From the NCBI GenBank assembly GCA_020072765.1, contig JAIQGD010000013.1, positions 1 to 39,263 on the forward strand: 39,263 nt of DNA, given 5' to 3'. Under the pieces are notes generated by a model. It was given only the letters and a program-made list of their open reading frames with translations. It was not told the origin of the DNA and searched no databases. The position numbers were made by a program, and so were the translations under genes. Shown here piece by piece: positions 25,623 to 29,243 of this stretch (its first letter is position 1; the number at the start of each line of letters is the position of its first letter). The DNA is from Terriglobia bacterium. GTDB lineage: Bacteria > Acidobacteriota > Terriglobia > Acidiferrales > UBA7541.

Positions 25623-27061
25623 CCGCGTCCCGCCAGGATCTTCACGAACGACGCGTTGCGCAACTCGGCCGGAGTCAGGGTCGTCAGCGCCTGTACTTCC
25701 TCGGCGGTTGCGGCGCCGCAGGTGATGGCCTGCAGAAAGTAATTCAACAGTCCCTGGGCCATGGCGGCGTCGTCGAAGACGCGCCCGATGCGCGTGGCCT
25801 GCGCGGCCTTCTCGATGAAATTGCGCAAGCGTTCCGAAGCCGAGTCGAGATTCTCCAGAAAGAACGAATAGACGGCCGCGAATCGCGCCGGCAGCTGCGC
25901 GGGGTGCAGGTCCCACCCCTGGTAAAAACCGCGCTCGATGGACCGCCGGATGTGCTCGAAGTGCAGTTTCCAGGCGTGCTGCACGGCGGCGCGATTCTCC
26001 TCGGCCTGGCGCTGGGAAAGCGGCGGACCGCCCGGCGCGGGCCGGTGCGGGGGAATCGGCAGAATGTTCAGCGGGCCGTCGGAGAGCCGCAGGCCGGTTC
26101 CCGCCAGCGAGGCTTGCATCAGGCCGCGCGCCAGATCGGAAGCGAAGTGCACCGGGGCTTCGTGCAACGCCGCGATATTCAGGGACGCGGTGTAGTCGTA
26201 GGGCCCGAAGTGCACGGCGGCGCAGCGACCGCGCGCCGCGCTCACCAGCGGCAGGAGATTGGTTTCGCCGCGTTCGTTGAGAATGGACTGCGCGGTTTCA
26301 ATCATCAGCTCGATGCTCAAGGCGCCGGGCGCCAGGCCGAGCACCGGTTCCAGCAGCGAGCAGATGTCCGCCAGGGCCGCGACTTCGTCCGCCAAGGTCA
26401 CCTTCGGCAAGGTGATGTAGAACTGGGGCGGCAATTCGCCGCGCGTCTTCGCCGCCAGCTCCGTCAGAAAAATATCCAGCGTGCGGACGCTGCGCTCGCG
26501 CAGTTCCTCGCTGAACGGCTTGATGCGGATGCCGAAGAAGGGAGGTAGGGCGCCCGCGTTCATGGCCGTGGCCACCTCCGCAGCCGCGGCGACGGCGTGG
26601 CCGTCTTCTTCGTCGTCGGGCCGGTTGCCATAGCCATCCTCGAAGTCAATGCGGAAGTCCTCGACGGCCTCGCGGCGCAGCTTTTCCCGGACGCGGCGAT
26701 GGATGGTGTGCGCGAACCATGCGGGGCGGTTGTCGCGGCGCGCGGCCAGCGGGTCGGCCTCCAGCGCGGCGGCCAGCGAGGCGGCGGCGTCGGGCGAGCC
26801 GGGCAGGCGGTCCGCTCCGGGCAGGCCGATGGCTTTGGCGAATACGGTGAAATCAGGTGCGAACTCGTCGAGCGAACGCAGCGCGAGTTCGCCCAGGCGT
26901 CCCGTCGTCCCCGAACGGAACAGGTGCGCGCCGCCGTACACCACATGCACGGGCTGGCGCTCGCCGGAAGGGCCGGGATAGCGGCGCTGGAACGCCTTGT
27001 GAGCTAGTTCAAGCCGCGTCGTGATTTCCCGCAGCGACTCCTGGGAGAGCGTTCTGTTCAT
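25616..27061 (-). CDS. HpcH/HpaI aldolase-like protein (DUF6986 type, sometimes called phosphoenolpyruvate kinase)
   Basis: 481 residues from ATG 27061. The N-terminus contains VVYGGAHLFRSGTTGRLGELAL, followed by IDFEDGYGNRPDDEEDGHA with an acidic pair typical of metal-binding TIM-barrel lyases, then IRIKPFSEE, YITLPKVT, IELMIETAQSI and VHFGPYDYTASL. These fit the CitE/HpcH phosphoenolpyruvate-binding barrel superfamily, in which Arg, Glu and Asp residues bind a Mg-enolate. The family is often annotated as phosphoenolpyruvate kinase or DUF6986; the reaction is not established as far as I know. It stands alone, divergent to the HD-GYP regulator and convergent with the deaminase, whose last 7 bases it overlaps. 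Confidence 0.75.
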   Translation of the reverse strand: MNRTLSQESLREITTRLELAHKAFQRRYPGPSGERQPVHVVYGGAHLFRSGTTGRLGELALRSLDEFAPDFTVFAKAIGLPGADRLPGSPDAAASLAAALEADPLAARRDNRPAWFAHTIHRRVREKLRREAVEDFRIDFEDGYGNRPDDEEDGHAVAAAAEVATAMNAGALPPFFGIRIKPFSEELRERSVRTLDIFLTELAAKTRGELPPQFYITLPKVTLADEVAALADICSLLEPVLGLAPGALSIELMIETAQSILNERGETNLLPLVSAARGRCAAVHFGPYDYTASLNIAALHEAPVHFASDLARGLMQASLAGTGLRLSDGPLNILPIPPHRPAPGGPPLSQRQAEENRAAVQHAWKLHFEHIRRSIERGFYQGWDLHPAQLPARFAAVYSFFLENLDSASERLRNFIEKAAQATRIGRVFDDAAMAQGLLNYFLQAITCGAATAEEVQALTTLTPAELRNASFVKILAGRGQ

Positions 27062-27127
27062 GGGACCTCGCGCGATCCGTTCCGCCCGTCCTGTCTGCAA
27101 CGGGTTGTCCCGGCGTGCGATTCGGGA

Positions 27128-27156
27128 TTGTTCCGGACTCCGGGACAGGATACATT
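27128..27156 (+). promoter_or_regulatory. Putative sigma70-type promoter of the HD-GYP gene
   Basis: TTGTTC (27128-27133) and TACATT (27151-27156) are separated by 17 bases. The start would fall near 27163, about 100 bases before ATG 27267. The elements sit in the divergent gap to the DUF6986-type gene. Confidence 0.4.
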
Positions 27157-27266
27157 TGTTGACCCGTGGAGTGAAAGCTCTCAGCGAAATATCAGCGGGC
27201 GGCGCCGGCGTATTCCGCGCCTCCGGCGAGGCGTTACCCCATGGCACGGCGAATGAGGCTCGGCTT

Positions 27267-28256
27267 ATGCCCGCACGCATTCTGATCGTCGACGATGAGT
27301 TGGCCGCGCGCGCCGCGCTCGCCACGCTGTTGCGCCGCGAAGGATACGAGGTGGGCGAGGGCAGCGATGGCGCCGCGGCCCTGGCCCAGTGCGCGTCGTT
27401 CCTCCCGGACCTGGTCCTGCTCGACATCGTGATGCCGGGCATGACCGGGTTCGACGTCTGCCGGCGAATTAAAGCGACGCCGGCAACCCGGCTTACGCCG
27501 GTCGTCCTGATCACGGGGCTTTCCGCCACCGAAGACCGCATCCAGGGCATCAATGCGGGCGCCGACGATTTTCTGAGCAAGCCCATCGATTTCAACGAAC
27601 TCCTGGCCCGCACGCGTTCGCTGCTGCGCCTGAAGGAATTCACCGACGAACTCGAACACGCCGAAGCCGTCCTTTTTAGTCTCGCGCAAAGCATCGAGGC
27701 GCGCGACCCCTATACGCTGGGGCATTGCGAGCGGCTCGCGGAAATGTCCGCGCGCCTCGGGCAAAAAGTGGGCGTTCCCGAAGATCACATCACCGCCCTC
27801 CGCCGCGCGGGGATCGTGCACGACATCGGCAAAGTGGCCGTGCCGGATGCGATCTTGCTGAAGCCGGGGCCTCTGTCGCCCGAGGAGATGCAGATCATGC
27901 GGAAGCATCCGGTGGTGGGAGAGCGCATCTGCGCGCCCCTGCGGACGTTCCGCTTGGTCCTGCCCATCATCCGCCACCATCACGAGCGCCACGACGGCTC
28001 CGGTTACCCCGACGGCTTGCGCGGCGGCGAAATTCCCGTGACCGCCGCCATCCTGCAACTCGCGGACGTCTACGACGCGCTGACGACCGAACGGCCCTAC
28101 CGGGCGGCCCTGGCGCCGGAGACTGCTTTGAAGATCATGGAGGAAGAAACCGCGCGCGGATGGTGGCACCGCGCCCTATTCGACGCCCTGCGCGAAATGA
28201 TCCGCAACGGGCCTCCCGCCGCCAGCCCCGCGAAACCCGGCCCACCGCCGAAATAA
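27267..28256 (+). CDS. Response regulator with HD-GYP domain (probable cyclic-di-GMP phosphodiesterase, RpfG-like)
   Basis: 329 residues from ATG 27267. The receiver domain (1-125) shows the acidic pair Asp9-Asp10, phospho-acceptor Asp53 (LVLLDIVMPG) and the KP pair (FLSKPID). A helical linker leads to the HD-GYP domain (about 145-310) with AGIVHDIGKVAVPD (HD pair) and HHHERHDGSGYPDGLRGGEIP (GYP motif), followed by LADVYDALTTERPYR. Proteins of this type degrade cyclic di-GMP when phosphorylated by a partner histidine kinase. No kinase gene is adjacent, so it is an orphan regulator here. An upstream in-frame extension to 27021 reads through the divergent promoter region and is not coding. Confidence 0.9.
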   Translation: MPARILIVDDELAARAALATLLRREGYEVGEGSDGAAALAQCASFLPDLVLLDIVMPGMTGFDVCRRIKATPATRLTPVVLITGLSATEDRIQGINAGADDFLSKPIDFNELLARTRSLLRLKEFTDELEHAEAVLFSLAQSIEARDPYTLGHCERLAEMSARLGQKVGVPEDHITALRRAGIVHDIGKVAVPDAILLKPGPLSPEEMQIMRKHPVVGERICAPLRTFRLVLPIIRHHHERHDGSGYPDGLRGGEIPVTAAILQLADVYDALTTERPYRAALAPETALKIMEEETARGWWHRALFDALREMIRNGPPAASPAKPGPPPK

Positions 28257-28258
28257 GC

Positions 28259-28393
28259 CTACAACCTGTCTCAGAAATGGTTTTTAGGGGGTCGGAGCTT
28301 TAGCTCCGACATCAAAACGTTCCTAAACGTGGGGCTTTAGCCCCTGAGGTTAGGCTGAGAAACCTGGCAGACCATTTATGAGATGCGTTGTAG
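28259..28393. repeat. Nested palindromic element (about 135 bp) with 23-bp imperfect terminal inverted repeats
   Basis: The ends 28259-28281 and 28371-28393 are inverted repeats matching at 19 of 23 positions (left end starts CTACAAC and ends AAATGGT). Inside lie two perfect short palindromes: GTCGGAGCTTTAGCTCCGAC (28291-28310) and GGGGCTTTAGCCCC (28331-28344), plus TTTAGG/CCTAAA flanks between them. No protein is encoded. It looks like a REP/REPIN or MITE-type non-autonomous element placed between the convergent HD-GYP and fdhD genes, where it could also end transcription from both sides. Confidence 0.8.
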
Positions 28394-28415
28394 TGGGCAG
28401 CGCGGCCGCGAATCG

Positions 28416-29243
28416 TCACGATTTCGAGATCCGCTCCGCGCCCGCGTACATCACGAAGCGCCGGCCACGCACAAACCCGATGAGCGTCAGGCTGAGTTCG
28501 CGCGCCAGCTGCACAGCCAGGCTCGAGGGTGCGGACACCGATGCGAGAACCGGGATCCCGGCCATAATGGCTTTCTGCACGATCTCGAAGCCGCCCCGGC
28601 CGCTCACCAGCAGCACACTGCGCGATAGCGGCAGCCGCTCTGCGAGCAGCGCCCAGCCGATCACCTTGTCCACGGCGTTGTGCCGCCCGATGTCCTCGCG
28701 CAGCACCAGCATCGTGCCGTGCTCGTCGAACAGCGCGGCGGCGTGCAGCCCCCCGGTGCGCCCGAAGACCGCCTGCGACTCCTCGAAGGCCTTGGGCATG
28801 CGAACCAGCGTCTCCGCGCTGAGACGAAAATCGGGGTTGGGCGGTTCGAGCGCCCGCGCGCGCACGGCATCAATGGCGGTCTTGCCGCAGACGCCGCAGC
28901 TTGACGTCGCAAAAAAATTGCGGCGGAGCTTCTCAAAATCCGGCGCGGCATCGGCAGCCAATTCCACGCGCACGACGTTTCCGCGATTCTTGGGATCATC
29001 CCCCGGATTCTCTTCCAGTGCCACGATGTGCGCGCGGCGGCGCACCAGGCCTTCGGTGAACAGGAACCCGGCGGCCAGCTCGAGGTCGTGCCCCGGCGTG
29101 CGCATGGTGACGATCAGAGGCTCGGCGCCCAGGCGGATTTCCAGGGGCTCCTCGGCGGCCAGGTAGTCCTCCTTGCGGCGCACCTTGCCGTCGCTCCATT
29201 CCGTGACCTGCGTCAGATGGACGCTGCGGGGCTTGCGAGCCAA
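28416..29243 (-). CDS. fdhD: FdhD, sulfurtransferase for formate dehydrogenase maturation
   Basis: 275 residues starting at TTG 29243, chosen because GAGGAG (29252-29257, minus strand) sits 8 bases upstream. Family features are EEPLEIRLGAEPLIVTMRTPGHDLELAAGFLFTEG in the first third, SSCGVCG (the CxxC pair used for sulfur transfer) and REDIGRHNAVDKVIGWAL, with LVSGRGGFEIVQKA later. FdhD takes sulfur from a cysteine desulfurase and inserts it as the sulfido ligand of the molybdenum cofactor of formate dehydrogenase. No formate dehydrogenase or other molybdenum enzyme gene lies in this window. The nearest upstream gene on the same strand is the solute-binding-like gene, 184 bases away. Confidence 0.93.
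   Translation of the reverse strand: MARKPRSVHLTQVTEWSDGKVRRKEDYLAAEEPLEIRLGAEPLIVTMRTPGHDLELAAGFLFTEGLVRRRAHIVALEENPGDDPKNRGNVVRVELAADAAPDFEKLRRNFFATSSCGVCGKTAIDAVRARALEPPNPDFRLSAETLVRMPKAFEESQAVFGRTGGLHAAALFDEHGTMLVLREDIGRHNAVDKVIGWALLAERLPLSRSVLLVSGRGGFEIVQKAIMAGIPVLASVSAPSSLAVQLARELSLTLIGFVRGRRFVMYAGAERISKS

Follow-up and report, generated by a model that had tools for sequence, protein, structure and literature searches.

The analysed stretch of 39,263 nucleotides (hereafter, the window) carries two convergent genes separated by a short non-coding gap: a gene of a response regulator with an HD-GYP-type domain (27021-28256, forward strand; Pfam PF00072 and PF13487), the true start of which may be located further in, and a gene of the FdhD/NarQ family (28416-29243, reverse strand; PF02634). 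The original prediction placed in this gap, at 28259-28393, a block with 23-nt inverted-repeat ends and two inner palindromes. We found its location and coordinates to be correct: the ends match at exactly 19 of 23 positions, and each palindrome is a perfect inverted repeat around a TTTA loop. The borders could be refined to an element of 129 bp without coding capacity (28262-28390, forward strand; the listed ORFs merely overlap its edges), flanked by TA on the left (28260-28261) and on the right (28391-28392). These strandless dinucleotides are presumed target-site duplications, given the TA excess at the borders of the whole family and the TA that borders a related insertion sequence (IS L139, see below). 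Within the element, type A terminal inverted repeats at 28262-28281 (forward) and 28371-28390 (reverse) enclose a conserved two-hairpin core (28286-28350, forward strand; model R1), composed of hairpin 1 (GTCGGAGC TTTA GCTCCGAC; 28291-28310, forward, stem of 8 bp) and hairpin 2 (GGGGC TTTA GCCCC; 28331-28344, forward, stem of 5 bp).

The inverted ends by themselves are only moderately improbable, as ends matching at 19 of 23 positions appear somewhere in the gap in 22 of 2000 Markov-simulated gaps (about 1 in 90). The fold of the whole block is far from chance, with z-scores of -6.2 as DNA and -6.5 as RNA and none of 200 shuffles folding equally well. An Rfam scan of the element gave no family above the gathering score, the one sub-threshold match reaching 17.9 bits vs 118.

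We found FdhD orthologues in 18 of the 20 genomes of the genus (own included), and in 17 congeneric genomes other than the own one the gene is accompanied by the HD-GYP neighbor. The element is missing from this junction in all 17, where the two genes are separated by 7-120 nt (16 genomes) or overlap (one genome); the own gap of 159 nt corresponds to 28 + 129 + 2. Thus, the element is an insertion in the own lineage. Its flanking TA dinucleotides presumably arose by target duplication, although the nearest empty sites belong to relatives with FdhD proteins 70-79% identical to the own one, which are too distant for base-level proof of the duplication at this exact site.

The decisive point for the reality of the element is its copy number. 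The own genome, a metagenome-assembled genome (MAG) of a soil acidobacterium with 3.78 Mb in 152 contigs (96.6% complete), contains 42 BLAST matches of the block, of which 5 span at least 90 nt including an end. The part common to the copies is the core of about 65 nt. A covariance model of this core built on 32 copies yielded 127 matches in the own genome at E <= 0.01, with the best 150 of 1499 first-look candidates scored, so that weak copies may be missed. The predicted mobile, non-autonomous MITE family is thus supported: instead of a single copy confined to one genome, which would have refuted it, the search revealed a multi-copy element that is also present in relatives. By BLAST, it was detected in 24 of 61 genomes (own included), all but one of the same family, while the core model gave matches in 80 of the 151 genomes of the class Terriglobia. 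Among named records, those that match the core exactly are acidobacterial MAGs, and several of them bear the label Terriglobia, Candidatus Acidiferrales or Candidatus Acidiferrum; plasmid and phage collections gave no match to the element. Across the 32 distinct copies, drawn from relatives as well as from the own genome, pairing holds in 99.5% of paired cells (100% for the 8 pairs of hairpin 1 and 98.8% for the 5 pairs of hairpin 2). Both-side changes occur in 6 of the 13 pairs, 4 in hairpin 1 and 2 in hairpin 2, and amount to 35 such cells vs 9.0 in shuffles. Compensatory changes in both hairpins mean that pairing is conserved, beyond sequence alone. The main hairpin-1 types are GTCGGAG..CTCCGAC, GCCGGGG..CCCCGGC and GTCGCGG..CCGCGAC.

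Hairpins between convergent genes could also represent a transcription terminator, local or bidirectional, that the host maintains, and among the 35 copies not located between tandem genes, 26 are convergent vs 9 divergent (p = 0.006). We nevertheless regard this explanation as most unlikely. The hairpins lack a U-tract, and an intrinsic terminator was rejected, as a scan for a GC-rich hairpin followed by a U-tract over 28150-28550 returned 0 sites on both strands. The copies lie at many loci, with terminal inverted repeats and TA borders, and the element is missing from the same junction in the 17 congeners. According to a rough codon-based gene caller, which certainly errs at some places, 85 of the 90 copies that could be classified are intergenic, 50 of them between tandem, 26 between convergent and 9 between divergent genes. 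Convergent positions thus comprise only 26 of 85, and there is no clear preference in orientation relative to the tandem genes (29 vs 21). The distribution fits selection against promoter insertions.

The ends of the element, in turn, point to IS5-type transposons. A transposase-first search revealed partial IS5 copies with the end sequence CTAGARGYYATCTCATAAA in two congeners (G015 and G010), and a PF13340 search of the family identified two elements with both ends (L139 and L141). These are about 853 bp long and bordered by TA, and their orfA and orfB overlap but are read in different frames; the partial copies belong to the same IS as L139. Both orfA and orfB of L139 reach the curated cut-off of NF033580 (NCBIfam IS5_3, IS5 family). 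A second IS group is represented by L144, with the left end CTACAACCTGTTTCAAAACTGG. The right end of the window element (CTACAACGCATCTCATAAATGG, reverse complement, from 28393) agrees with that of L139 at 19 of 22 positions, and its left end (CTACAACCTGTCTCAGAAATGG, from 28259) with that of L144, likewise at 19 of 22. Of 200,000 random 19-mers, none matched the right end in its inner part at 16 or more positions, the maximum being 13. Autonomous elements with matching ends, i.e., IS5_3 elements, hence occur in the same genus and family.

The transposase driving the family, which the original prediction left unknown, can therefore be assigned to a type, the IS5 family (NF033580), based on matching ends in congeners, while the own assembly has yielded no such gene. 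Searches of this assembly detected one PF01609 gene and no PF13340 (IS5_3-type), PF05598 or PF13358 gene; this is weak evidence against a resident driver, because MAG assemblies often lose repeated IS. Type A ends followed in relatives (L073-L095) delimit miniature elements with no transposase gene; the driver type emerged solely from searches that began with transposases. Type A ends carry other cores too: in relative G109, the stretch of about 150 bp that they enclose (L085, 1369-1519) has an interior without GCTTTAGC hairpins. The MITE core was not found inside the IS copies L139, L141 and L341. Since the complete IS has nothing like it, the MITE did not arise from the matching IS simply by internal deletion.

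The original prediction had also considered a REPIN. Acidobacterial TIRYTs (TIR-associated Y1 tyrosine transposases) with families of terminal inverted repeats are on record (PMC3733652), the hairpins of the element are REP-like, and the own genome has two Y1_Tnp genes (L023 and L024), one of which scores 75.9 bits with the REP-associated family, where the cut-off is 80. Upon inspection, however, both genes proved to be flanked by unrelated palindromes (GCGGCGGCTTGCCGCCGC and GCCCAACCCGCAAGGGTTGGGC), and the nearest core lies about 1.1 kb from one of them. The element itself has IS5-type ends with TA borders, and its hairpins 1 and 2 differ in stem length and sequence, and so do not form an inverted pair of one REP. 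No GTAG/CGTC tag was found beside the hairpins, where the flanking bases are AGGGG/ATCAA and ACGT/TGAGG; the GTAG at 28390-28393 represents the border of the element, and other copies do not retain it. A tblastn search for RAYT homologues among 365 loci retrieved, besides the two Y1 genes and a contig-edge piece of that of L023, a single match (24% identity, E 4e-4) in L077, beside a related MITE. The RAYT flanks and the loci inspected consequently lend no support to a RAYT driver, the REPIN designation is not supported, and movement of the element as a REPIN or REP-type repeat by a RAYT or other Y1 tyrosine transposase, TIRYTs included, seems very improbable.

The Y1 genes are noteworthy for their own surroundings. 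In L024 (1228-1364, G000:C49), a classical inverted pair GCGGCGGCTTGCCGCCGC / GCGGCGGCAAGCCGCCGC precedes the REP-type Y1 transposase gene, and the same palindrome recurs in loci L215, L260 and L278, so that a RAYT-REPIN system distinct from the present family seems to exist in the own genome. In L023 (1170-1329, G000:C65), the second Y1 (IS200-like) gene adjoins two copies of GCCCAACCCGYRAGGGTTGGGC, which represents another unrelated palindrome family.

We classified 110 own copies by end and core type and found the same two-hairpin core between four types of ends, corresponding to IS5_3, IS5_4 (two types) and IS630, all at TA. Left ends were assigned to type A in 9 copies, B in 14, C in 14 and D in 28, with none recognised in 45; shuffled flanks yield almost no recognised ends. 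Type C ends match an IS630 element of relatives (L341, NF033545), and those of types B and D match their IS5_4 elements (L288 and L289, NF033581). Of the 129 ends recognised in the own genome, 78 have TA at the predicted border, compared with a window-wide TA frequency of 1.7%. This excess is most evident for types D, C and A; it is weak for type B, the exact border of which may be misplaced. The hairpin-1 type tracks the end type (D with GTCGCGG, C with GCCGGGG and B with GTCGGAG), and type A ends enclose both GTCGGAG and GCCGGGG cores. In one copy (C50:40252), the ends and the right arm are of type A, but the core and spacer are those otherwise found with type C ends. Ends of two types were detected in 12 copies, comprising seven B/D, four C/D and one A/C pair; since B and D are similar in sequence, only the four C/D and the one A/C are clear hybrids. 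The simplest reading of the hybrids would be recombination between copies via the common core.

Other arrangements were also observed. In relative G093 (L288, 1-1720), the IS5_4 element adjoins an end similar to type A and a miniature element of type C that is complete, which suggests repeated insertion into CTAG-like sites made by earlier insertions. A core subtype GTCAGGGCACGGCTTYAGCCGTGCC...GCGGCTTTAGCCGCTGAGGGACGTAAATTCCAGTTGCC has none of the four modelled ends, and its right flank is conserved in the own genome, while a GGGCACGG-type core is present in the distant genome G195 (loci of these cores: L242, L253, L255, L260, L262; L348:19342-19405).

Such a wide occurrence of one core, in 80 of 151 Terriglobia genomes and with four end types, could mean that the two-hairpin core is an independent, self-spreading REP-like repeat trapped within IS-type ends several times. 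In line with this, 31 of 110 own copies have no recognised end on either side, and the single inspected copy in a distant family (G195) has no obvious ends. Yet such ends may be decayed or of types outside the models, no enzyme was found for the core alone, and the correlation of the hairpin-1 type with the end type indicates that core and ends mostly travel together. We therefore consider an autonomous core rather unlikely.

The hairpins themselves are the site of further insertions. Long cores occur in 41 of the 110 own copies, and in about 39 of the 110 the core holds a further hairpin of about 33 nt (such as CGCGCCTTTTGCGTCCCGAC...GTCGGGA or CGCG..TTTTGCGTCCCGA..TCGGGA), e.g., at C39:2696-2795 (L015), C123:6671-6769 (L218), C122:4040-4136 (L245) and C133:64054-64186 (L265); two long-core copies hold a different insert. 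The additional hairpin is positioned at the tip of hairpin 2 (GGGGCTTT^AGCCCC, GGGGTTTT^AACCCC) or within hairpin 1, or at both sites in one copy, and at the loop tip it is inserted cleanly, without duplication. It may represent a second mobile palindrome, with hairpin loops as its target. Clean insertion of this kind would resemble HUH/Y1 transposition. We tentatively propose, as a conjecture with perhaps a modest chance of being correct, that the hairpin pair found across the class Terriglobia is a passenger that switches between unrelated TA-targeting ends (IS5_3, IS5_4 and IS630) and also serves as the loop-tip target of the 33-nt hairpin, as expected of single-strand (HUH/Y1) insertion. 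The recurrence of a second hairpin within the hairpins is a testable hint of single-strand transposition.

Taken as a whole, we consider it likely that 28262-28390 is a non-autonomous MITE with IS5_3-type ends, located at TA, mobilized in trans by an IS5 transposase and belonging to a modular family. It would have entered a TA (CTAG-like) target within the short gap that separates the two convergent genes. Since its ends are those of small IS5_3 (orfA/orfB type) IS, an IS5 transposase acting in trans is the most likely agent of its movement. The conserved core would be packaged between the ends of the TA-targeting groups IS5_3, IS5_4 and IS630, and the hybrid copies suggest that copies have exchanged modules by recombining with one another. 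With only about 80% identity among them, the three type A copies of full length show no sign of recent activity; the element in the own genome is presumably inactive at present and probably a fossil, or dependent on occasional IS5 invasion. In open-licence papers we found no description of the repeat family in Acidobacteriota. Exact ends and a driver type can be named for a high-copy, apparently so far undescribed repeat family of a major soil phylum. The modular superfamily is less ordinary than the single element: its miniature elements seem to swap the ends of different transposase families, which could explain how they outlive any single driver.

Several known systems share some of these traits. 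With REPINs, RAYT-associated REPs and acidobacterial TIRYT repeats (PMC3116915, PMC3733652), the family has in common intergenic hairpin repeats at high copy number, and it differs from them by its IS5-type ends and by having no matching Y1 transposase, conserved GTAG/CGTC tag or inverted REP pair. IS5-family IS (NF033580 IS5_3; L139 and L141) have similar terminal repeats and TA borders, but carry orfA/orfB, whereas the element has no reading frame or detectable IS interior. Bacterial IS-derived MITEs (PMC10969869) are likewise short, non-coding, multi-copy, intergenic and strongly folding, with IS-matching terminal repeats and TA borders; in contrast to them, the core described here is common to elements with the ends of different IS groups and is no deletion derivative of the matching IS. 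As for the pneumococcal RUP and BOX elements (PMC3049150), they resemble our family in their copy number of about a hundred, extensive folding, modular composition (BOX) and proposed trans-mobilization by an IS, which for RUP is IS630-Spn1 (PMC3049150), yet their sequences and hosts are different, and here one core is combined with the ends of three IS groups.
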